Assembly: GCF_001625215.2 (NCBI RefSeq)
Contig: NC_030387.2
Span: 37,223,606-37,287,605 of the forward strand
Source: Daucus carota subsp. sativus
Lineage: Eukaryota; Streptophyta; Magnoliopsida; Apiales; Apiaceae
DNA length: 64,000 nt
Reading direction: 5' to 3'
The notes beneath the pieces are model-generated. The model ran no database searches. It was not told the origin of the DNA and was given only the letters and a program-made list of their open reading frames with translations. Below, one piece after another: positions 39,701-55,400 of the stretch. Numbering within the stretch: position 1 is the first letter of the stretch; every line of letters begins with the position of its first letter. Both the position numbers and the translations under genes were made by a program.

Positions 39701-40500
39701 AGACTTGAACAAAATCAAAGTATCCTAATTAGCGAGAAAAAAAAAATCATCATCAAAGTATCCAAGAAAGAATGCGTTCATGTATTGACTTAAACTGACG
39801 TGAGAAGTGACCTAAATTTAATAGCCATAACCTCCTCCAGTACAGATTACTGAGTAGAACCTCCTCCAGATAAATTATAAATAAAACATAGAGACGCAAA
39901 ATTCTAAATTTTCCAGTTATAAATAAAAGCCTCCTCCACTTAATTTAGTAATATAGGGGCCGTTTGGGATAGTTTAAAAAAATTGACTTTTTGTTTAAAT
40001 TAAAAAAGTAAAGTAGAAGTGAGAAGTAAGTTCATAAAATGTTTGAAAAAGAAGTGGAAGTTGTGAGAAAAAAGTTAGTATTGGTGATTTCGGCCAGACA
40101 AACAGACCCATGATACACGTCAGATCACATAAGCGATGCATGCATATCCAGTTGGAATGGCTTTGACTCGCCTCACACGTAGCTTCCCTCACTTCTAAGT
40201 CGGCTACGTGTCCATCTCACCCTTCACCACCAACCATACTCCTATTACTACTCTATTCGAGAAAACAAAAATTAATTTTTTGCCGAAAAACAAAAATTAA
40301 ATTTAGTTACACTTAAATTTTCTTGGAGGAAAATTTGAATCAAACATGTCATATCCTAAGAAATAATTTAAAATTATACTAATATTTTTATTATATTAAA
40401 TAAAATAAAATAAAGTATTTCTGAAAAATAGACAAGCCAAGGCATACATGTGACATATCATATGATATACGCGGCGCCTATGTACGTTTCCATCAGGACC
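36729..40500. other. AT-rich intergenic region, no gene seen
   Basis: About 3.8 kb without a supported gene. It holds one clear Stowaway element (39424-39675) and a PIF/Harbinger-type remnant (about 39956-40109, GGGGCCGTTTGGGATAG to GGCCAGACAAACAGACCC). The open frame at 37160-37357 has no recognisable features. Confidence 0.55.
39424..39675. mobile_element. Stowaway-type MITE
   Basis: CTCCTTCCGTCCCCTTTCAC and the complementary right end (GGACATAAGAGACGGAGGGAG) are flanked by TA on both sides. Length 252 bases. TIR homology extends inward over more than 60 bases (AATTGACTAATTTTTGAC against AATTTGACTGGTCAAAAG). Confidence 0.9.
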
Positions 40501-40515
40501 GGAACACTCTACAGC

Positions 40516-40523
40516 TATATAAA
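40516..40523 (+). promoter_or_regulatory. Probable TATA box of the amidotransferase gene
   Basis: TATATAAA about 105 bases before the ATG at 40623, followed by a CA-rich leader typical of plant 5' UTRs. Confidence 0.6.
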
Positions 40524-40622
40524 CACACACACACATACTCACATTTTACACACACTCGCATATTCGCATATTACACAAAACCTACTTTCTTCCTTAATCG
40601 ACAAAACCAAAAGCTCTTCGCG

Positions 40623-42662
40623 ATGTCATCGGACCTGTCTGTGATTTTGCCTCGTGTGTTAATTGTCTCTAGACGAAGCCTTCGCAAGAACAAGTTCGTA
40701 GATTTTGTTGGTATGCATTTTCTCCTCCTTTTTAAAAATTTGTATACGACAAATTTCGATTGTTAGAATATTATATGATCCCTGTGATAAAAATCACAAA
40801 CCTACCTTCTAAATGATGCAAGAATATAATTATTACATATTGGTATTATTATCGTGGTGGAGTAGGGTAGGATGTACGGAGACGATAAGAGCCGTATCGA
40901 AATTATGGTATTGTGTGTTCCTGGTCAAGGAGGGTAGGATGTACGCAGATGATAAAAGCCCTATTGAAATTATGATATTGTGTGTACATCATAGGATGTG
41001 AATAGCATGATTATATATGTGTAGTCATTATGTGCTATTATGATGATTTTAGTTGAATATTTTGTGTTATTAAAATTCAATCGAAATTTTGATATGAGTT
41101 ATTATTGACTTGGCAATGTTTGGTTTTTTGAAAAATTTGTTAGGTGAATATCATCTTGATCTTATAGTTGGGTATGGAGCTGTGCCTGTGATTGTGCCCC
41201 GGGTGACTGGGGTCCACATGTTACTGGACAGCTTCGAGCCGATTCACGGGGTTCTTCTGTGTGAAGGAGAGGACATTGATCCTTCACATTATGAAGCCGA
41301 AACGGGTGGCTTGTCGTTGGAGGAGTTGGAAGAGATTAGGAAGGTGCATGCTAGTGATACAGCTATTGATAAAGAGAAAGATACAATTGAGTTGAGCCTG
41401 GCCAAGCTTTGTCTCGAGAGGAACATCCCTTATTTGGGGATTTGTAGGGGTTCGCAGGTCTTGAATGTTGCGTGTGGGGGCACACTTTATCAGGACATTG
41501 GTAAGGAATTGACAAGGAATTGTTCTGAGGATCGAAGGGTGGTGCATATGGATTATGATAATTATGATGGGCATAGGCATGTGGTTAAGGTGCTGAGGAA
41601 CACCCCGTTGAGCGATTGGTTTAAGGATTCTTTGGAGGATGAGGAAATGGAGATTCGGGTTAATAGTTATCACCATCAAGGAGTGAAGAAGTTGGCTCAG
41701 CGTTTCATGCCTATGGCATTTGCACCTGATGGGTTGGTTGAAGGGTTTTATGATCCTGATGCTTACAATCCGGAAGAGGGTAAGTTTATCATGGGGCTGC
41801 AGTTTCACCCCGAGCGAATGAGGAAGCCTGATTCTGATGAGTTTGATTATCCAGGATGCCCTGCTGCTTACAAGGTACATTTCGCGAGGGCAATATTTTT
41901 ATTCATTATTTAGTTGACTAATTGAAACGATTTGTATTATATTTATGCAAGTCTTTCCATTCCAAAACCCCCAAGTGACAAGTGGAACAGAGAAAGCGAC
42001 TTCGCTGATGGCATAAGCTAATGTAACTTCAATAAGAAAGTGCAAATATATAAGCCCCTTCTAATTATGTGCATTATATTAACTTCGCAGGAGTTTGTCA
42101 AAGCAGTGGTAGCTTATCAGAAGAGGCTTAATGGAACAACAAGTGTGCCAAGATCCCTTAAACTGGATCAGGAAATGGAAAAGAAAAGGAAAGTTATAGT
42201 CAGAAGTTTTTCCCTGGCACGAGATTTATACGCAGCTGGAAATGAGAGGAATCCATTCAAAGACTCTGAACTTGAACCCGGGGCTGATTTTCTGGAGGTA
42301 TAAACCTAGTATCACACAGAGATAGAGAAATGGAGTATTATCTAATAACAAAAATGAAATCTTAAAATTTGAAAGATATTAGGACTTATTGGTTTGTTTT
42401 TCACATGCAGTCAAACACAGCTCTGAGTTTGCAACAAGAGACTAGGTTAAAGCAGATGGGTGCAACCGTGAGAAATGCATCATCCTACTCCCAGAAACTG
42501 AAGGTAAATGCGGAGAGGGAAAGGTTAGCAAAAAATGTGATAGAGAAAATGTCCATTGAACAGTTATCGGATCTCATGTCATTTTATCACATGATGGGAC
42601 AGTTATGTTCTGATGTTCTGGAAAGAAAACTTCATGGTGTGGTCAACGACCTTGATTCTTGA
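40623..42662 (+). CDS. Class I glutamine-amidotransferase-like (peptidase C26) protein
   Basis: Four exons, 40623-40710, 41144-41874, 42091-42297 and 42411-42662, give 425 aa. The N-terminal two thirds form a class I GATase fold of the gamma-glutamyl-GABA hydrolase (PuuD) type. The nucleophile elbow is [12 protein letters not shown] with Cys130, and the His-Glu pair is in GLQFHPERM (His251, Glu253), so the catalytic triad looks complete. An acidic motif, [15 protein letters not shown], matches the family. The C-terminal 130 residues (from [15 protein letters not shown]) are a plant-specific, charged helical extension. There is no transit or signal peptide, so a cytosolic enzyme is likely. The family cleaves gamma-glutamyl amides; the plant substrate is not known to me. 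The start follows a TATA box and matches the second exon in phase 1. Confidence 0.92.
40864..40985. repeat. Two-copy 67-bp tandem repeat in amidotransferase intron 1
   Basis: AGGGTAGGATGTACG.AGA.GATAA starts at 40864 and again at 40931. Each copy ends ...GAAATTATG.TATTGTGTGT. The copies differ at about ten positions. Confidence 0.85.
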
Positions 42663-43700
42663 TTCAGATTGTGTTCTAGGTTAAGTGCTTTGTTTTCATT
42701 TGCTGTGATGTCCTTAATAATTAAGGATCACTCTGAATGATGTATCGTTTATTTCAATATTTTAGATCCTTTCCTTCTCTTCTTGATCTGTATTTTTGCT
42801 TGATTGAACGCGGTGATTATCCAACATTATCTAATATAATTGTGCCAATGCTGGGACCTAATAATTTCTGTCGAAATATTTAAAACATTTAACGTAACAT
42901 AAAATCGATAATTTCTGTACTTGTTTGAAGGCTCATGATCTTCCATGACCCAAAACACATGAAGATGACCTCTGTTTTGCACCTTGAGCTACCATAAATG
43001 TTAATATGGTGGTCACTTCTCCCTTCCGTTCTGATTTTGTATGGTGCTGGAAATATTAGGATTAAAAGCAGAAGCTTAGTTTTGATAAATATGCTTAAAA
43101 TATATAATCCTCATAATATACTGCGAGTCCTGGTCAGAATATTGATTGAAGTTGAGATTAAATCTACGTAAGCATGTTCAGCATGCACAAATGAGCAACT
43201 GAATTTTTTTTTTTTAAGCTAATGATGTAGAACTAGAACTAAGTCGTTGATTTCAAGTCAACAGTGTGATTATCTAGATTACACTAGGGCCTGAACTTGC
43301 TCTCTGTAGTAAAACTGCAGATGAACTACATTTGAATTCATGTCATATGGACTTAATGTTCAAGGAGTAGTTGGTTGGTATATAATTAGGTAGTATGAGC
43401 TGAAGACTGGGGAAATCATTTAATCGTCTTTCTATCCACAACTTCATGTTCTGCTGATGGTAGGTTTTTTTTGTTTGACATAGCAAGAGTGAATTTGAGG
43501 TATATAAATTTGCTAAATTAAAATAATCATACATACAGAAATTCAAGGCGAAGACCTAATATCCTTCTATCGCTTTCTTTGAATATAGTGTTAAGTGCAA
43601 GTTCCCTCTAGTATCATTTTATATTTTAATTCTGATTCTTCCTATTTCTAATTTGTAATATTCTGTCAGCCGCTTCCTCTAGTTTCGCCAGATATTTCTA
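42663..43700. other. Spacer between amidotransferase and receptor-kinase loci
   Basis: 3' UTR followed by AT-rich DNA. No repeats or coding signal stand out. The last few hundred bases must contain the promoter of ectodomain exon A, if that exon is used. Confidence 0.45.
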
Positions 43701-43701
43701 C

Positions 43702-44470
43702 ATGGATTTTCAATTTGTTTCATGGTTTCATTTGTATTCTGTCCTATTGTTCCTAAATACTCTGGTTTTTGAATGTTCTAGTCACCTAGATGATTGGTAC
43801 GAAAGTTGTGGTGCCACATTCAGCTGTGGCGCTATAACTGGAGTTGGATATCCTTTTCGTGGAAATGGAGATCCCGAGTATTGTGGATATCCCAGTTTTT
43901 TGCTTAAATGTGACCAAGACAACATGACTACTATTCGATTAATGAATGTGACATATCGTGTATTAAACATCGATCAAACTACCCAGGTTATGAAGATAGC
44001 TAGAGAGGATGTAATGGATGTAACTTGTCCACAGGAGCTAGTAAACACGACCTTCAATTACGCAGTCTATGATTTTACTTCTGCTTATATGAATATTACA
44101 TTTCTCTATGGGTGTCCGGTTTCTGTCAAATTGCAAAGTCCAAGCAGTGTTTCTTGTGGGAGTAAAGAGAACGATAGCGTCGATGTAGTTTCTGGAGCTC
44201 ATGGCCCTGGAAACTGCAAGTATAGTGTTGTTGTTCCAGTTCTAAAAGCAGGTGCAGAAGGATCAGTCAGTTTAACACATTTGGATCAACTTCTCCAAGA
44301 GGGGTTTGAAGTCAGATGGAAAATGGACGGAAAAGCATGCAGCGACTGCACCAGTACAGGTGGACGCTGTGGATACAGCTTTTCTACTAATCAAACAACT
44401 TGCTTTTGCCCTGGCCAACCATATCTTTCGGATTCTTGCTCTGCAGCTAATAGAGCTTCGCCTGGTCCAG
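43702..44470 (+). CDS. LRK10L receptor kinase, alternative ectodomain exon A
   Basis: An open exon of 256 codons plus one base, starting with a signal peptide (FHLYSVLLFLNTLVFECSS) and followed by a GUB_WAK_bind domain: CGATFSCGAITGVGYPFRGN, then YCGYPSFLLKC and a WAK-associated Cys motif near the end (CSDCTSTGGRCGYSFSTNQT). The GT donor at 44471 leaves phase 1, the same phase as exons B and C and as required by the shared exon at 50091. No kinase exon lies before exon B, so exon A must either splice over 5.6 kb to 50091 or be an orphan. Spliced that way the product would be 687 aa. Confidence 0.8.
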
Positions 44471-46265
44471 GTATGCAATAACCTCTGTCCCGACCTGAAA
44501 ACATGCAATCTGCTATAAACTTTTGTGTTTTTCTTTTCATGATTTTCTGGTGCTCTAACTGTCTGGAACAAGTCTTGTTTAACCCAGCGCAAGTCAAAGG
44601 TTGTTAATCTAATGCCAGATTGTATGGTGTTGTATATATACCTACCACATTGCTTTTTAATCGCCAAGTTTCCTACCAAAGTTTTATTCATAATCCTTAT
44701 AGGTTGCATTGTTATCGGCTTATCGCCACAGCATATTTTAACTGACTTAAGATCAGTTAGTCGTAGCAGGTAAGGCTTGGTTATTGGTCTCTGCTTCTGA
44801 TGCTTTTAATAAAAAATGCTTCTTATTTTCTCCCACTTCAGGTCTTCTACAGACATGTTGGCTATAACTCAGCAGTGCATATATATGGGCATGTTGATAG
44901 GTACATAATTGTAGCTCGAGTAAAAAGATACAATGTGTAAAATTATCAAATCTAGTACGTACATTTGAGTCCTATAGGAGTTGGATAATTTATAGGTGCT
45001 GCAACTAGGCAAAGAATGTTATATTCTGGAATTGCTTAGTTTGACATAATGTCAAGAAATTTTTTTTCCTTTGTTTCAATATACTACTTTCATGGTACTA
45101 TTCCCAAATAATAAATTTACTGTTGAAAAGCACAGCTATTGCTATCCAATCTATGAATCGTGATCTGATGGTGCAATGAATATATGACAGTTATTTTAGG
45201 AACAATATATATACTGGTAGGAGATTCTTCTATATAAGCACCATAGCTCAAGGTAATAGACAGTATTCTGAAATTTGAAATGATTGCCAAAGACATTAAG
45301 TACGGTTAGATGACTTCTTGTTTAGGCATTTTGGTTAATTTTTGTAGAGAGAGATGCCCTTACAGATTTGTCCAGCAACTTTAATACAACCATCAAACCC
45401 TTTGTCTGCTTCCAGTGATGGTTCTGGCCTTCTGGACCTTGAACTTGAGTCTTATCATTGTTACGCATATAATAACTTCAATTCAAAGCTAAGAAATCTC
45501 TTTGGCAGAATGTGCTGCTAAGGAACAACACAAGACCAGACTTTTCCTTGCAATAGGGTATCTGTATAGGCAGTAGCTATTGATCTCAGGACTGATATTG
45601 CTATGACTCTTACCATTCTTCAAATTCTTGAAGGAAAACAGTCGCTTGAGATCAACTGTTGTGCATGCGCGAGAGCTGGGGTATATCTTTCTCTAGTGAA
45701 ATTTCTGTATCTAGAAGCTTAGGTGGATACCTGAAGAGTCGATTCACCACCTTTCTTTCCGCGATTTGTCATACCTGTAAGTCGATCCGACTTGAACAGT
45801 CAGAGCGACACCCTTAGATCTAAGGTCATGCCATCTCTCTTCTAGGTTCCTGGTTTTCTTGGAAGTCCATGATTTCCAGAGGGGATGTAGAGACCATTTG
45901 TTTGTAAATGGTTTGAAATCTGAAGGACCCTTTTCTAGAAGTTCAGTCCCTTGAATAGGAATTTCTCCGTGTGTTTGACTAATAAATAAAAATCTTCAAC
46001 TTTAGCTGGTATAGCAGACAATAATTCAATGTTTATATTTATATATTTAATACCGCAACTTTGGACATATTTATTGAGTTGATCTTAGCATTAGCTTTGG
46101 TCAAGAATGTAGCAATTTCCAACAGAAGCTTCCAAGTTAGTAAACAATTTTTATATCCTCTCTGAGACACCTTAGTTAAAAAATTATTTCAATTCCTCTC
46201 TATGTATTAGAGTTCCTAGCTCCCAAATCTTTATATGGTTCATACATCTTTCTCTTCTATAAGAT
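44471..46265. other. Region between ectodomain exons A and B
   Basis: About 1.8 kb with no supported coding exon. The part from 45360 to 45700 has a somewhat higher GC content and short frames, including one ending in ILQILEGK, which might be the remnant of a receptor-kinase C-terminus. I could not establish this. Either promoter for exon B or intron for an exon A transcript. Confidence 0.35.
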
Positions 46266-47040
46266 ATGCTTTTCTATAGATTTCCAGCTCCGTTTCTCTA
46301 CCTTGCCATCTTACTATTCACTCTAGGCCATCTGCCCGCGAGTTACTGTCAGGTTTACCGAGAATTTAATGAGTGCGGCAAGCGTTTCCGATGTGGCAAC
46401 TTCTCAAATCTTGACTACCCTTTTTGGGGAGGCGATCGACAGTCCTACTGTGGGCATCCAGCGTTCCAGCTAAATTGCCAGGAAAACGTCACTTTCATAA
46501 ATTTACGGTCAAAACAGTATCGAGTTCTTGGAGTAGATACTAGATCTCAGGTTATTACCGTTGCTAGGGAAGACTTGTGGAACAATACCTGTCCAAGCCC
46601 TATCAACAACACAGACTTGGATTATACTCTTTTTAGTCATCCTTCTGACGATCAGAACCTGACGTTGTCATATGGTTGCGCTTCTGTCCTAGGCCAGCAA
46701 TCACTGTTTAAATTTGATTGCCCGGTGAATGGTGCCCGCAGTGACAGTTATTTCACTACACGAGACGCAGCTTTAGTTGCACCTAATATAGCCCAGCTAA
46801 CCTGCGATACCCGAATTACTGTTCCTATTAATCAGACATCAGCTGACGCGTTAAGCAGTGCAAGTTCGTCAGAAAATGACCTTAAGGAAGTTCTGAAAGC
46901 TGGTTTCAGGTTGAAGTGGGATGCAAACGACAGCATCTGCAATGAATGTGCTCGACCAGGTGGACGATGCGGCTATAACTCAAGTACCTCGTCCTTTGCT
47001 TGTTATTGTTCTGATCGACAATGCAATTTGATCGACTCAG
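46266..47040 (+). CDS. LRK10L receptor kinase, alternative ectodomain exon B
   Basis: An open exon of 258 codons plus one base. A signal peptide (FLYLAILLFTLGHLPASYCQ) is followed by CGKRFRCGNFSNLDYPFWGG, YCGHPAFQLNC and the C-terminal WAK-associated motif CNECARPGGRCGYNSSTSSF. The GT at 47041 gives phase 1. A stronger donor seven bases later (G|GTAAGT at 47048) would give phase 2 and break the frame to 50091, so 47040 is preferred. Joined to the shared exons the product would be 689 aa. Ectodomains A, B and C are clearly related but diverged, with several N-glycosylation sequons in each. Confidence 0.82.
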
Positions 47041-48496
47041 GTAATGGTAAGTCCCCTTTCTGTACTTCTGTAAACCTTGTATTAGTTTCAACTCTTGTCC
47101 GTCAATCAATTATTTTGACTATAATTACGCAACACGGTTGAAGTTTGTGATCCGCAAAACCATTAAGTGTCTGCTTGTTATCTGGTAGTTCAATTCATCT
47201 AAGTTCCGCTAATTCAACCCAGAACATTCGATTGATTGTCAAATTACTAGACTATTTTGGCAGGATCTGGTCTGTGTTGAGACCATAACAACCGGGGGTC
47301 TCTGTCGTGAATGTGAATCAACCAAAACACATGTCTTTATTTATCAGTTTTCTGTGTCAAAGGTGCACTAGGGGAATTTTTATTTGTTTCTCATTTTAGT
47401 TTTGATATCCATAGATGGGGTGAACAGAAGTGTGACAAAATTGACCGGGTCTTTGATGTCATCCACAGTATATATTAAAAGTATTGGATTTTAGATCTAG
47501 TTGCAAGTCATGCAAGTTGAAATATAGAACACTCCCATTATTCTCATGTCTAATTTTTTATTGGGTCCTGATCCCCGACAACTGGTTGCTGGAGAGAGTT
47601 TATATAACATACAAATCCAAGGGTGTTGGATCTATATTTCAAGGTCCAGATTCAAGCAATTTTTTTTTTTGCCATCCGTTATAATTTTCCACGGATCGGA
47701 CTTCTTCCCTTCCGCGGAAAGCAAAAAAAAAAAAAATTGAATCTACACCTTTGAAATTCAAATCTAACGATTCTAAAGTTGTGTGTTGGTTAAGGCTTTC
47801 TTATTGGTGTACAGTAGTACTGTTAACAGGAAAGACAAGATACAGACAGGTGTGCGACTGCGCGTGTATATATGGAACCTAGGCGGCTCTTTCTTGATTT
47901 GTTAATTTCATTTATGTTTTTTTGGCTATTAATTTCAGTTAACTGTTTTCTATGAAGCTGTTTTGAATTTTGATAAATAATTATTTAATTAGTTTTCACT
48001 ATTTTCTATTAACTTATAGCAATCTTTTGAATAAAAATCAACTGTTTTGATAAGTTTATGTTTCTTTCAAAATTAATTTTTCGGCTTGAATTATTATTTT
48101 GATTTCCTAACTACTAGAAAATATTACTCACTCATCCGTCTCTCTTATTTCTTTACAGACTTTTTAACATTATTTGATACCTATTTAAAATATGTATACA
48201 ATATATTTCATATTTTTTCAAATAAATTTCCTGTATAAATAATTTATAAAATTATACTCGTTCCGTCCCAACAAATAATTTACATTCATTGTTTATACGT
48301 ATTTTTAGAGAAAAAGTAAGGTAAAGAACAGTGTGCGGCGAATGAATATAGAATTGAGAATTCACACGCAGACCGCGAAAAGGCCCATACAAACAAAAGT
48401 CAAACAAAGACAGCCCGCCATGTCATTATTCGAAAAACCCGTTGGGCTCCACACAAAACTCAAACTCACCGTGCAAACTCACTCTCACTCTTCACA
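47041..48496. other. Region between ectodomain exons B and C
   Basis: AT-rich, with a possible solitary MULE-type end at about 47562 (GGGTCCTGATCCCCGACAACT, similar to the Pack-MULE TIR) and poly-A/poly-T runs near 47660 and 47730. At about 48255 a lone Stowaway-like end (CTCGTTCCGTCCCAACAAAT) occurs. No gene seen. Confidence 0.4.
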
Positions 48497-51400
48497 ATGC
48501 ACCTCCCCTTCATTCTCCTCCTCCTCATCTCGGCCGCTCCGCCGTCGCTCACCGCCGCCTCGTACCCCAATTGCTCCACCACCTTCTCCTGCGGCCCAAT
48601 CCACAACCTCACTTACCCATTCACCGGCGGCGGTCGGCCCACTTACTGCGGCCCACCTCAATTCCATCTCACTTGTCTCAACCCCACCACTCACCCCGAG
48701 TTAACTCTCAACTCACTCACTTACCGAGTTCTCGCAATCAATCAAACTCAACAAACCCTAACCCTAGCCAGATCAGATCTTTACAACACCCCCTGTCCTC
48801 AAAAGCTCATCAACACTACTCTCAATTCCAGTATCTTCACTCTTGATTCCGACAATGTGAAGCTTAATTTGTTTTACGGGTGTTTTTTATCGATAATTCC
48901 TCAGTCACTGAAGGCGTTTAGCTGTAATGTGAATGGTGCTGAGTCTAGTGATGCTTATTACTTTGTTGGCTTGGTTCCGGTGATCAATTATATTCAGTGT
49001 GCTGTCAGTGTTGTGGTTCCGATACTCGGGATAGCGGGAGAGAGATTGAGGAGTAATTTAGCTACTCTGGACGATGTTTTGGTGTCGGGGTTTGGAGTGA
49101 AGTATAGTGATCCTTTTAGTGATCAGTGTTTGAATTGTAGTAAATTGGGTGGGCAATGTGGGGTTTTGGCTAATCCGATCCGACCTGTTTGCATTTGTCA
49201 AGATAAACTGTGTGTTGATGCAGGTATCTGATCGTTTCATATACTGAATCATTTTTTGTTGTAATCGTGTGTTTTAGATGGATCGTATTTAGAATTATTA
49301 GTTAGTACTTTCTTAGGCTTCGTATTCATCAAATAAACCTAGAGAAGTCTAATTGTTATCATACCAAACATTCTTGCCACACTATAGATTACCGCATTAT
49401 AATTGATAGAACAGTTTATTTCACATGAACGTGATCTAGAATGACTTGGAAGTTTATAGAATAGCTTGCCTTCGTGTTCTTAATAAATTATGAGAATATT
49501 GGGGTCACAGGAAAACGAATTTGAGTCTCCCACGAGCCCCTAAGCTCTAAGACTATATAAAGTGACCCATTCTCATAAAATCTCAAGGTGTTGGGAGCAG
49601 GGCTTACCAGGATCCTAGTGTATCAACTATCAATAGCTAATGGGTTGGAGTAGACTACATTTTAATAGCTAGCCTGAGATTTAGTTCTTTAGCTCACTGG
49701 TACAAATGTAACGGGGAAAGCAGTCTAACTGAATCCGAAATTTATGTTGGCTGACCTAGTTAAATTAGAAAAGGTCTGTGAACATATTGTATCTGGTTAT
49801 GTAATTAACCCTGATTGATTCCCCTGGTGCGGTCACTGTATTAGCATGTAAAGTATAAAATTTGAACCAAGCATTTCGATCTGGATATAGTGGAGCCAGA
49901 TTTTTCTATTTCTGTGACATTGTTATAAGCAAAAGTTAAAGACATAGTGAACTAATTCACATTGTCTTTGATTTTTGATTCAAGGGTCTCATTGTAAAAC
50001 ATTTGGTTGGAATCACACTTGTCAATAGACTTTGTTTAGAGTATATTAGTCATGCTTTGCTAATTCTTAAAATGTCTTTTATATGTGCAGGAAAACATGG
50101 TAAATCAACTCCAAAACTAAGCATAGGTAAAGCTTATTTTGCAGTAGAGCTCTGTTATCCTGTTTTCGCCATTTATATTTTCAGAAGATATTAATACGGT
50201 CTTGCACTTCCAGTCATCTCTGTGGTAGGTGCTGTTATTGCTGGCGCTGCCATTACATGGTTATACTTCTTTTGGTGGCAGAGGAGAAAACAAAAAACTG
50301 CCCAGTCTGCAACACACATTGAGAGCAAAGACCATCCAGCTACTTCAGCCAAATCTCTTACTACCGCAACATCAACTCATTTCACCAAAAGCATTCCTTC
50401 CTATACTTCCTCAGGGTTCGGGTCGGGAAAGGGAAGCACCTACTTTGGAGTTCAGGTCTTCGACTACGCAGAACTTGAAGAGGCCACTGATAATTTTAAT
50501 CCTTCCAGAGAACTCGGAGATGGAGGCTTTGGTACTGTATACTATGGTAAGACCTCTTTCTTATTATATCAGTTGGTACTGTATGCTATGGTAAGAGCTC
50601 TTATTAAAAATAATTATCCTGATTAGGCACGCTTCAAGATGGTCGTGTAGTGGCAGTTAAGAGACTATATGAGAACAATTTTAAGCGGGTACAGCAGTTT
50701 ATGAATGAAGTTGAAATCCTGACAAAGTTGGATCATAAAAACCTAGTAAAGTTGTATGGATGCACTTCCAAGCGAAGCCGAGACCTCCTCCTTGTTTATG
50801 AATATATACCAAATGGAACGGTAGCTGATCATCTACATGGTAAACAAGCGAATTCAGGTCTGCTCTCTTGGTCTGTCCGGTTGAAGATTGCTATAGAAAC
50901 AGCTGAAGCCTTGGCTTATCTGCATGTCTCCGGTATCATTCATCGTGATGTCAAAAGTAACAACATTCTCCTGGACAACAGCTTCTGTGTAAAAGTTGCT
51001 GATTTTGGGTTGTCTAGATTGAATCCAAATAATGCCACTCACGTTTCGACAGCTCCACAAGGTACACCTGGATACGTTGATCCTGAGTATTACAAGCTTT
51101 TCCAGCTCACTGATAAGAGTGATGTCTATAGCTTCGGAGTGGTCTTAGTCGAGCTTATATCATCATTACCAGCTCTGGACAGCAGCAGGGACCGATTAGA
51201 TATAAATTTGGCTAGTATGGCTATCAGTAAAATCCAGAACCAGACAATAAACGAGTTAATTGATCCAAGACTTGGATTCAAAAGCAACGCATCAGTCGAA
51301 AAGATGACCACATTGGTTGCAGAGTTAGCATTCCGATGTCTACAGGAGGAGAAGGATCTAAGACCTACAATGCAGGAAGTGGTGGACACCTTGAAGGAGA

Positions 51401-51552
51401 TACAGTGTGAAGATTCAGATGCTCAGAAAGCAGTAGTGTTGGACATTCGGGTGGAGGAAGTTGCACCGCTAAAGGGTAAGGAAGGTTCATTCTCACCAGA
51501 TTCAGTGGCTGACAAATGGATTAGCAACTCTACATCTATTCATAGTGAATAA
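48497..51552 (+). CDS. LRK10L1: LRK10L1-type receptor-like kinase (ectodomain C plus kinase)
   Basis: Exons 48497-49223, 50091-50126, 50214-50546 and 50627-51552 give 673 aa. A signal peptide ([20 protein letters not shown]) precedes a GUB_WAK_bind domain ([31 protein letters not shown]) and a WAK-associated CXXC...GGQCG motif. A 36-base mini-exon follows, then one membrane helix ([19 protein letters not shown]). The cytoplasmic kinase keeps all key residues: [21 protein letters not shown] (Lys), [22 protein letters not shown] and [13 protein letters not shown] with Arg marks it as a likely active RD kinase. Arabidopsis LRK10L1 makes LRK10L1.1 and 1.2 from different first exons; LRK10-type genes are linked to rust resistance and to ABA and drought responses. 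Here two further ectodomain exons (43702, 46266) lie upstream in matching phase. Confidence 0.93.
50531..50603 (+). repeat. 44-bp tandem duplication across a kinase splice donor
   Basis: GGTACTGTATACTATGGTAA at 50531 recurs as GGTACTGTATGCTATGGTAA at 50575, so the exon end and its GTAAGA donor are copied inside the 80-base intron (donors at 50547 and 50591). Use of the second donor would add 44 bases and shift the frame. Confidence 0.85.
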
Positions 51553-52476
51553 GATATGGTTATACACTGGGTACAAATGAAGCCGATATCAGATGGTTCG
51601 AGTGATGTAAAAGTCGAAACTCCCATCGAAGGCTGACATAAAGCTATAGTACATACACATGTAATTATCAGAGCTTGCAACAACCATAGTTATCTTCATA
51701 TCATTCTGACAGATTTGTTTATTTAATTATGCTTGGTCATGGACTCATGGTGTCGTCTGGTAGAAGTACCTTCTAGCAATTATGCGGTAACTTTTGTACA
51801 ATATTGGAGGATTGGGTGAATGTATATTAGTTTTGATAAAATTATTCATGCATATTGATGATTTTTTTTATCAATAATGTATATTATGTCAAATTCTATG
51901 CAAAAAATGCCAGAATTTATCATAGTCCAAACAACAATGTTGGCTAGAATTCAATTTGGTGTCTGTTCTTGAGATATACAAAGATGTAGAGACAAATGCA
52001 GGATTAGTTTCTTTAAATGATTCTTACAAGTTCCGCAATCAGAGGAGTCCTATTCGACTTCTCAAAGCCTGACAGCATTCACACAACAAGACTGCTTGCT
52101 GTATGTGTGATCGATTCTAGTTTATATGGGTATTACTTCTGGAGGAAGCGGTTTTGTATTCAAGAACAGTATTTACATAACATATCTGTACATAAGGCTT
52201 TACAACTTTACAACTTACAAGGTCTTTACTCTTCAGGTTCTCTTTGAAATCCTATTTTCTCTGGCACTTCAGCCTGCATATTAACAGACTTCTGAACATA
52301 AGATAGATAAAGCAATACAGTTTTAAAAGAAGAATAAAAAGTTGGTATTTGCAGCTTGAAAAGGTTAATTTCTGATTCGTACGTAACCACCATTACGGGG
52401 GAATATGATGGTGACTGATAAAGATTAATTTTAGTTCAAAGAAGAAACTTAATGCACAAAGGTAATTCTATCTCAA
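51553..52476. other. Space between converging receptor-kinase and CRS1 genes
   Basis: Holds both 3' UTRs. No gene or repeat is seen; the frame at 52017-52247 has no recognisable content. Confidence 0.45.
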
Positions 52477-55400
52477 TTAGAAGTTTAGATCCCTTACTAG
52501 TTCTCTTCTCAAATCTGAAATTGCCTTCTCTCTTTGATTTGCAAAGAACTTCAAGGACTGAATATACAAGGAGACAACAATTAGCTTTGTTCCCATTGAT
52601 GCAAGATGAATTAATGATATAAAAAAAAAATGGAATTTGTAGGGTAAAGAAGCAGAAAAATGGAAAATATACTTACTCCAACTCTCTGCATTTCAAGTGA
52701 CCTTTCTAGTGCTTCTCTTTTACTTAAAAGATTCTCCGATACCAACTTTAAAGGGCGTTTATAGTTTTTCCCACGATACAAAATTATAGCGTGGCCTTCT
52801 TTCAGCTCCTCTACTGAAATAAGTATTCCACCACTTTGTCTCTGAAGAAGTCTTGCTGTATTTACAATATGGGAGAACACTTTCTGCTTTGTAATCACCT
52901 TCACTAGTTCTCTGTGCTTCCAGTGCTGATGCAATCCTTCTATGACACCATCAAACACCCCTCGCCTTCCTGAAGACATTATCAAGCTGAAGGTACTAAG
53001 AATTATGTGTATTCCCACCAAAGGCACATAGTAAATAAGCTAAACAGCAGCCAGAAGAAAAAACAAAGAATAAAGAATACCTGGTAAGCATCAGTTTTTT
53101 AAATGAAAAGAATTAATTTACCGCACTTAACCAAATGACTAATATAGAAACTACCATACCTAAATTTATAAACCTCAAAAGTAAGAACTATAATGAAGAA
53201 AAACTAGCCATTAAAAAATAAGTGACTACAGTCAATAATGATTGTTTCAAGGAAAGAATGGTATCCCTTTTGCATTTGAATGCCAAGAAATTTAGTAATG
53301 GAGATGGTCTTGTTGATGGCTTTCATCAAACAAGACAACATCTTCAAATTTCAAGCACCCGGGGCTATTACCCAGATTTCTCGCAAAAAAATTAGGTCTT
53401 TATTCGTACTGCTTCTCATTATCATGCTTCAAGCATACTGCATACATAATGAGTATCAATTTTCATCAAGTAAATATTTTCACATCCTAGTAAATTCTTT
53501 CAGCCAGATAGAAAATACGAAGCCAAATTAATAAATAAATTAAGGAGCCAAAATCAAAATTGATGAGTAACCATTGTGTTTAAGAACAAGTATAACTCTT
53601 TGCAGATTCTTAAACAAACATAACATAAGGTAGTAGCAAGACAGAGAAAGTTATAGATTACCAAGAACCAGAGTGCTATCCATCTTCAGACCTATCTTCC
53701 TTAAACATTCTCTCTCTTCTGGGGTTACTATTTCTTGGTCAGCATCCAGTTCAGCAGGTCTCCATGCCGAATTTATTTGCCGTAGATTTTTACTTGACCT
53801 CCCTATCTTCAATTTAAGCTGTAGAATTCCTTATTAATTCATAAACAATTGTTCTTATATTAACACAATTTGAGTGGATATGTTTTAATGTTGATACATA
53901 CCTTTGAGAGTTTGTGTTTTTGCTCTCTCAATTCCTTTTTTAGCTTTCTCTTTTCAGCTTCAAATTGAACATTCACCTTCATGTCTTCACCTTCCAGGTC
54001 CCCACGGTTTGACCGAATATCCTGGAACTCTGACAGGGTTCCAACAGTGCTGTCATAATTTGATGGCTCAACAGTCAAACAAATGTTTCCAATTGCTTCA
54101 GCGCGTGCAGCTTCTTCTTGAAGTTGGCAGCTTCTAAGCTCTATTTCTCTCTCTACCACAAGGTTCGCAACTCTGCAAGGAAGAAAGTCCTTGCCTCTGT
54201 AAATTATTATAATGAATTTATTACGCAATAACAGAACTCCTCCTGTCAGACACTGCACGATAAATTACACTTCACGTAAGTCCATCAAATAACATCACAG
54301 CAATATATAAGAATCCAAGTCATACAGAATTTTCCTACATAGTGGACCTCTTCATTGTTGTCAGATCAACAGCAATTTCATATGAGAAACATACTAGCAA
54401 GCACCTAAATAAGATTATAATATATATGTTTTATGATACTCAACTTGCCTTGAGCTCATCTGCCATTTCAGCATTGTTTGTATTAAGAGCTCCCAACTTC
54501 ACAGCGATCTTCGCAATATGACATTTCTCCCACAGTTTCAAAATGGCTGCAGCCAAGCCTTGGAGATTTCTGTTTCTTCCTACAGAGAAAATAAGGAAGA
54601 ATCAGCATAATTCTCTCAACAAAACTTGGGACATTATTATAATTATGAGAACTTTGCATGTCCATGACAAGCAGTCACCAGGCTCTCCTGTTTTTCAGAT
54701 AGTGATTAGTGAAGTAGATTCGACATCACGTAAAGCAAAGTTTATAAGCTTGTAACTTGAAATGTTTTTATTTGGGGTTTCGGATTCGGGTTGAAAACGG
54801 GTTTCAGGTCGGTATGGTTAAATCCCAAACCCAATCAAAAAATAGTTCAGGTTCCAAAAATAAAACCCGAACCCGAAATTTGATTCAGTAAAACCCAATC
54901 GGATCGGTACATGTTGAGTATCCATCGGATTGGTAAAAATTGTCATCCCTGCCAAATAATGTGAATGCAACAAAAACCTGTTTTAATATAGGATTCGGCT
55001 TCATCAAAGTTTTTTTAATTACTCTCTACATGTATTTAGCCCTAATAATTATAGTCATTAGCCAGATTCTGACTTCTGTGTCTGTTGTTACTCAGGCACC
55101 TCGTCAGATTCAGGAAGTGGTGGAAATTGGCATCACAGTCCATAAGCTACTTCAGTTTGATCTTCAAAGGTACTAGTGTAAATCTACCAATGGTTAATCT
55201 AGCAAATATATCATTAGCTATAAAGAAGGTTTCTGTATTAATGAAATTCATTCCTCTACAAAGAACACGCATCATAACATTTCATAGCTTAGAAACCTCA
55301 TGTAGGGAAGAAAATACCTAAAACAAAATGTGTGGGTAAAGGGCGAGAAAGTTTCCTCAAGTAAGTAAGTTCATCATCAGTCAGTTTTGATCTAGTTTTT

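Follow-up and report, generated by a model that had tools for sequence, protein, structure and literature searches.

A plant receptor kinase is usually regarded as a single sensor joined to a single kinase. A gene with three candidate ectodomain first exons (A, B and C) upstream of a single kinase, all on the plus strand at 43702..51552, raises the question of whether several sensors can feed the same kinase. To address it, we analyzed a 64-kb window (the whole stretch of DNA under study, G000:C7:37223606-37287605; single positions below are counted within it) and searched its assembly, 441,086,747 bases in 11 contigs, for relatives.

RESULTS

Three ectodomain exons are in frame with one kinase

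Exons A, B and C (Table 1) each open with ATG and are all 3n+1 nucleotides long. When A, B or C is joined to 50091-50126, 50214-50546 and 50627-51552, the product is in each case one open frame, of 688, 692 and 674 codons, respectively, including the stop. The first-pass annotation of this DNA, which had proposed exons starting at 43702, 46266 and 48497 and ending in phase 1 for a shared mini-exon at 50091, is thus upheld on these points. The implied first introns measure 5,620 nt for A, 3,044 nt for B and 867 nt for C. The gene is flanked on one side by a Peptidase_C26/GATase-like reading frame (41098-41910) and on the other by a CRM-domain frame on the opposite strand (52614-53039). Between exons B and C, at 47641-47751, lies an imperfect 29-nt inverted repeat, 79% complementary, with poly-T and poly-A arms, possibly the remnant of a small mobile element. 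Rfam at gathering thresholds gave no matches in 40000-54000.

Table 1. Features of the candidate receptor-kinase gene, in window positions (a slash marks the exon end)
Feature	Position	Strand	Description
Candidate first exon A	43702..44470	+	769 nt; leader (by eye), GUB_WAK_bind, WAK_assoc; phase 1 at CAG/GTATGC
Candidate first exon B	46266..47046	+	781 nt to ATG/GTAAGT; leader (by eye), GUB_WAK_bind, WAK_assoc
Candidate first exon C, closest to kinase	48497..49223	+	727 nt; leader (by eye), GUB_WAK_bind, WAK_assoc; phase 1 at CAG/GTATCT
Shared juxtamembrane mini-exon	50091..50126	+	36 nt; phase 1 in, phase 1 out
Exon with membrane segment (hydrophobic, by eye) and kinase-domain start	50214..50546	+	
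Kinase exon, ending at stop codon	50627..51552	+	HRD and DFG motifs (by eye)

Domain searches place the gene in a known family. GUB_WAK_bind exceeds its Pfam cut-off in all three ectodomain exons (E = 9.9e-18 for A, 1.8e-17 for B and 4e-16 for C), as had been proposed, but it does not stand alone there, as WAK_assoc does so too (E = 1.6e-16, 1.3e-20 and 5.2e-11). These are the sole families per ectodomain exon at E values up to 0.01, and an EGF repeat, which would suggest a WAK, is absent. The signal peptides, read as hydrophobic leaders, and the membrane segment were judged by eye. The kinase exon passes the cut-offs for PK_Tyr_Ser-Thr (E = 7.8e-45) and Pkinase (E = 1.3e-44). By its predicted domains the gene is an LRK10-like receptor kinase, with both ectodomain domains and an RLK-type kinase downstream in one gene model.

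A profile built from 20 ectodomains of the same genome has exactly three matches in the window, A, B and C, and tblastn with the window kinase finds no second kinase there below an E value of 0.2, in keeping with the single kinase first annotated. The divergence claimed for the ectodomains is equally evident, with pairwise identities of 31.5, 36.5 and 37.1%, and 11 cysteine columns are invariant in all 20 aligned ectodomains of this genome, A and B included. Structure prediction for exon A with the three window ectodomains was too poor to use (mean pLDDT, 45.4). When solved structures were searched with a profile, the sole matches were to glutathione peroxidases and to designed proteins, at E values of 0.068 and above, and were taken as chance; a scan of viral contigs for exon C gave no match.

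Several ectodomain exons precede one kinase at related loci

Six relatives of the window kinase, 68-71% identical to it across at least query residues 29-288, lie at C8:30.60, C2:48.27, C4:34.27, C4:30.91, C7:3.30 and C3:49.51 Mb, and together with the window locus we count them as seven close kinase loci. A partial match at C3:49.50 Mb (67%, residues 126-289), which has one ectodomain (C3_m1), is omitted from the seven. Stops fall inside the kinase match at two of the six relatives, one at C2 and two at C4:30.91. The C4:30.91 match has no stops when cut to the kinase exon, and the C2 stop sits in intron sequence at the edge. In a kinase tree of this genome only, the window kinase groups with those of C4:34.27 (C4a), C4:30.90-30.91 (C4b+) and C3 at 96/96, apart from a second kinase type.

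Ectodomain exons upstream on the same strand number three at the window locus, at C4a and at C4b+, two at C7:3.30 (C7b) and one each at C3, C2 and C8, in a count whose upstream reach varied from 4.6 kb past the furthest exon at C4b+ to more at the others. More than one ectodomain exon therefore stands before one kinase at four of the seven close loci, and no kinase was found between the exons. A phase 1-1 mini-exon can be read by eye at C4a (36 nt), C7b (48 nt), C4b+ (36 nt), C3 (75 nt) and C2 (42 nt).

The surroundings of C4b+ are crowded. A dense cluster at C4:30898001-30956000 (L023-L028) holds one close LRK10-like kinase and several of the second kinase type, the latter about 34% identical to the window kinase, along with about 12 ectodomain stretches on both strands, some of them broken; three (one broken) precede the kinase at 30918337. 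LRK10-like ectodomain exons also occur with no kinase nearby at C2:28347601-28349600 (L036) and C2:46003201-46004800 (L037), each followed by a membrane-like segment as judged by eye. At the former, the segment is followed by the start of a RING-like motif (by eye), a combination that resembles ATL-type RING ligases. These two ectodomains, the two larger of four such matches, do not look like stand-alone sensors.

Arrays are mixed at other loci, and cassettes may have moved

How such arrays arose can be approached through the ectodomains themselves. In a tree of 20 ectodomains of this genome, A, B and C firmly join no other exon. C4a_2 groups with C3 and C4b_p2/p3-type ectodomains (95/96), in agreement with the kinase tree, and C4a_3 and C4b_p1 lean weakly to the C2/C8/C7b_1 type (86/80). 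The topology tests that follow are weaker for having been selected after the first tree was known. They do not reject a single clade made up of A, B and C (P = 0.30). Such a clade is rejected for the three C4a exons (P = 0.0002) and the three C4b+ exons (P = 9e-45) and marginally rejected for the two C7b exons (P = 0.041). When the window locus is matched position by position with C4a, the pairing of B with C4a_2 is rejected (P = 8e-5), as is that of C with C4a_3 (P = 0.007); A with C4a_1 is marginal (P = 0.044), and A with the C4a_2 group is not rejected (P = 0.16). With the B and C pairings and the C4a and C4b+ single clades rejected, the arrays, on the sequences at hand, are not simply inherited in order. 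In-place duplication at the window locus is possible, and the other loci appear to hold mixed ectodomain types.

Movement between loci offers one source of such mixtures. C2:48273665-48274742 and C4:30924762-30925838 share 1,088 aligned bases at 92% identity, a 1.1-kb cassette that comprises the C2 ectodomain exon and its donor with about 140-160 bp before and about 175 bp after. The copy in the C4b cluster is on the strand of the second-type kinase and lacks the C2 kinase. This is a sign that ectodomain cassettes are copied between loci or arrays. Copies also decay. C4:26551690-26553090 (L029) carries an incomplete and rearranged copy of exon C together with part of its intron and pieces of the kinase, in five pieces that are 77-95% identical, with a stop in the ectodomain, and C4b_m2, C4b_m7 and C4b_m8 are truncated or broken ectodomain copies. 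Since decayed copies are present elsewhere in the genome, some ectodomain exon copies are out of use, and they illustrate how such an exon comes to look.

Splice donors are mostly kept in phase 1

If distal ectodomain exons such as A and B were stand-alone genes or relics, their donors should decay. The donors score 6.12 for A, 5.59 for B and 4.70 for C, values reached by 0.17%, 0.34% and 0.75%, respectively, of all GT sites in the window. Exon B had first been ended at 47040. That site (CAG/GTAATG) holds as a usable phase-1 donor but not as the sole one, as the site after 47046, in the same phase, scores higher (5.59 versus 4.95; 0.49% of window GT sites reach the lower score). For a random point, the frequency of finding a donor of the same phase within 21 nt that equals or exceeds the weakest of the three is 0.0059, a figure that depends on an approximate plant donor weight matrix and on a threshold taken from the tested sites themselves.

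The same tendency is seen across the genome. After removal of the truncated or broken C4b_m7, C4b_m8 and C4c_1 from 28 ectodomain exons, the top-scoring donor is phase 1 in 23 of the remaining 25, with C3_p and C3_m1 as exceptions. Phase 1 is best in all seven distal exons of the close loci with several ectodomain exons (A, B, C4a_1, C4a_2, C7b_1, C4b_p1 and C4b_p2), and six of the seven score at least 3.6, C7b_1 being weak at 0.45. In these counts, the exons are related, so that trials are not independent, and three exonic donor bases are partly constrained by coding. Under simulated neutral change from an ideal donor, 39% still score 3.5 or better at 0.3 changes per site and 18% at 0.5, and because so few are left at the latter, an unused donor should fade.

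Two other fates for A and B can be considered. In the first, A and B, and perhaps C, would be mainly soluble secreted ectodomains, the protein ending just past the donor through intron retention or early polyadenylation. Read-through does meet a stop after 2 codons in A, 30 in B and 1 in C. The strong donors in the window and the preference for phase 1 in all seven distal exons argue the other way, as does the membrane-like segment that follows both kinase-less ectodomain exons described above, and we regard a mainly soluble role as unlikely. Soluble and kinase-joined forms could coexist.

In the second, A would be spliced into B through an internal acceptor to give a fusion receptor with two ectodomains in tandem. 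From four in-phase AG sites (46263, 46287, 46326 and 46362), the frame stays open into the B ectodomain. The best of them, 46326, lies a short way into the B leader, and the 20 bases before it include 15 pyrimidines, compared with 11 at the mini-exon acceptor, although a pyrimidine count is a weak acceptor test. A possible parallel is Arabidopsis AT1G66880, whose annotated protein is unusually long for this type. However, part of the B leader would end up in the middle of such a protein, and for fusion into C the two open phase-1 sites in the scanned stretch have just 8 and 5 pyrimidines in 20. We consider the fusion very improbable.

Exons A, B and C have been selected as proteins for most of their history

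In neutral decay simulations (2,000 runs each) with substitutions alone, the frame stays open at 0.05 substitutions per site in 19.9% of runs for A, 15.8% for B and 28.3% for C, and at 0.1 per site in 5.5%, 2.6% and 8.3%. With 0.1 indel per substitution, the fractions fall to 0.75%, 0.3% and 1.45% at 0.05 per site and to at most 0.05% at 0.1, although this version rests mostly on the assumed indel rate, the substitution-only decay being slower. The branches leading to A, B and C in the ectodomain tree are much alike, at 1.0, 1.05 and 1.21 changes per residue, and with branches no longer than that of C, A and B appear no more relaxed than C is. Set against the rapid neutral loss of frames, branches of 1.0-1.2 changes per residue mean that A, B and C have each been selected as proteins for most of that time. 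Protein-level selection has acted on the three exons over most of their history, and the simulation is compatible with function having been lost during about the last 0.05 substitutions per site. The dN/dS comparison of the three exons suggested in the first-pass annotation carries no information here, as dS is uncomputable in two of the three pairs and 3.05 in the third.

A further explanation is that A and B are left over from tandem duplication and are either silent or cut off from a kinase. Decayed ectodomain copies do occur in this genome (the C4:26.55 Mb copy of C with its stop, and the broken C4b_m2 and C4b_m8), and a recent loss of expression would leave the frame still intact. Yet both A and B retain intact frames, the 11 cysteines of the family and strong donors; in the absence of selection, no more than 0.7% of frames survive 0.2 substitutions per site (A, 0.45%; B, 0%; C, 0.7%); and each of the three pairs among A, B and C shows the most differences at codon position 3 and the fewest at position 2. 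Relics are therefore quite unlikely.

DISCUSSION

We think it probable, reading from the sequence, that this LRK10-like receptor kinase gene has three alternative first exons, all of which feed a single kinase. Transcription from upstream of A, B or C would yield a pre-mRNA in which the earliest donor is spliced to the mini-exon at 50091. In a transcript from A, this splice would remove B and C with the intron, and in one from B it would remove C; B and C can be lost as intron because first exons need no acceptor. Promoter choice would then set the isoform, through presumably separate promoters and their predicted RNA junctions. The output would be three receptors with the same membrane segment and kinase and with ectodomains that are 31-37% identical, which may differ in ligand and in expression.

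Anatomy, phase, kept donors, intact frames, recurrence in the genome and the two-way cases of Arabidopsis favor alternative first exons. Counting against them are the introns of A and B, which are long beside that of C, the weak donor of C7b_1, and the best donors of C3_p and C3_m1, which are not phase 1. A TATA-like motif occurs in the 400 nt preceding each of A, B and C; with one also present in 50% of 400-nt stretches taken at random from the window, this is no better than chance.

A broader proposal, which we put forward tentatively and with rather less than even confidence, is that the LRK10-like kinases of this lineage use growing arrays of interchangeable ectodomain cassettes, each a promoter, leader, sensor and phase-1 donor, upstream of a single kinase. 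Such arrays would be assembled separately at several loci and fed by copies from other loci, so that one kinase samples changing cell-wall or pathogen sensors, much as in a small plant version of the protocadherin clusters. Should first-exon arrays prove common among LRK10-like genes, gene models limited to the nearest exon miss receptors, resistance-gene mapping can point to the wrong exon, and nature has provided ready-made ectodomain swaps. The question of whether promoter choice decides which signal a given kinase hears becomes testable.

The nearest precedents are in Arabidopsis. One is AT1G18390, which we take to be LRK10L1. The two-form precedent invoked in the first-pass annotation is borne out, as AT1G18390 has two isoforms with alternative transcription starts (PMC10337256); there are two forms there, whereas the gene in the window has three candidate first exons. 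For Arabidopsis LRK10L3, a second report describes peptides that support each of two alternative first exons. The two forms differ in their ectodomains and are identical in the membrane and kinase regions, and the authors propose that diverse signals are recognized with a common core (PMC13136898). As compared by description, LRK10L3 and the window gene are alike in having one kinase and membrane region and first exons for distinct extracellular domains. They differ in that LRK10L3 has two isoforms, backed by peptides, and the window gene three candidate ones, predicted here from sequence.

Duplication is a recurrent theme in the family. In one study, just under 50% of Arabidopsis LRK10L orthogroups are dispensable and over 40% come from tandem or proximal duplication (PMC12382012). 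CsLRK10L2 of cucumber, by its authors' inference, formed when the first exon for an ectodomain was duplicated and became attached to another kinase (PMC7649820). That case is a new gene fusion, in contrast to the several ectodomain exons that would share one kinase here.

Outside plants, the clustered protocadherins of vertebrates have variable first exons arranged in an array, any one of which is joined to the same downstream exons. A paper on the Pcdh-gamma promoter is an entry in the reference list of PMC2174465. The layout is like that of the window gene, but the proteins are unrelated, the array here is far smaller, and promoter choice here is a prediction. None of the matches listed in the open-access literature describes a three-way version or repeated arrays, and a description may exist in subscription journals. 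With the two-way form already known, what appears to be new is the three-way form, its recurrence as multi-exon arrays at four of seven related loci in one genome, and the sign of cassette movement among them.
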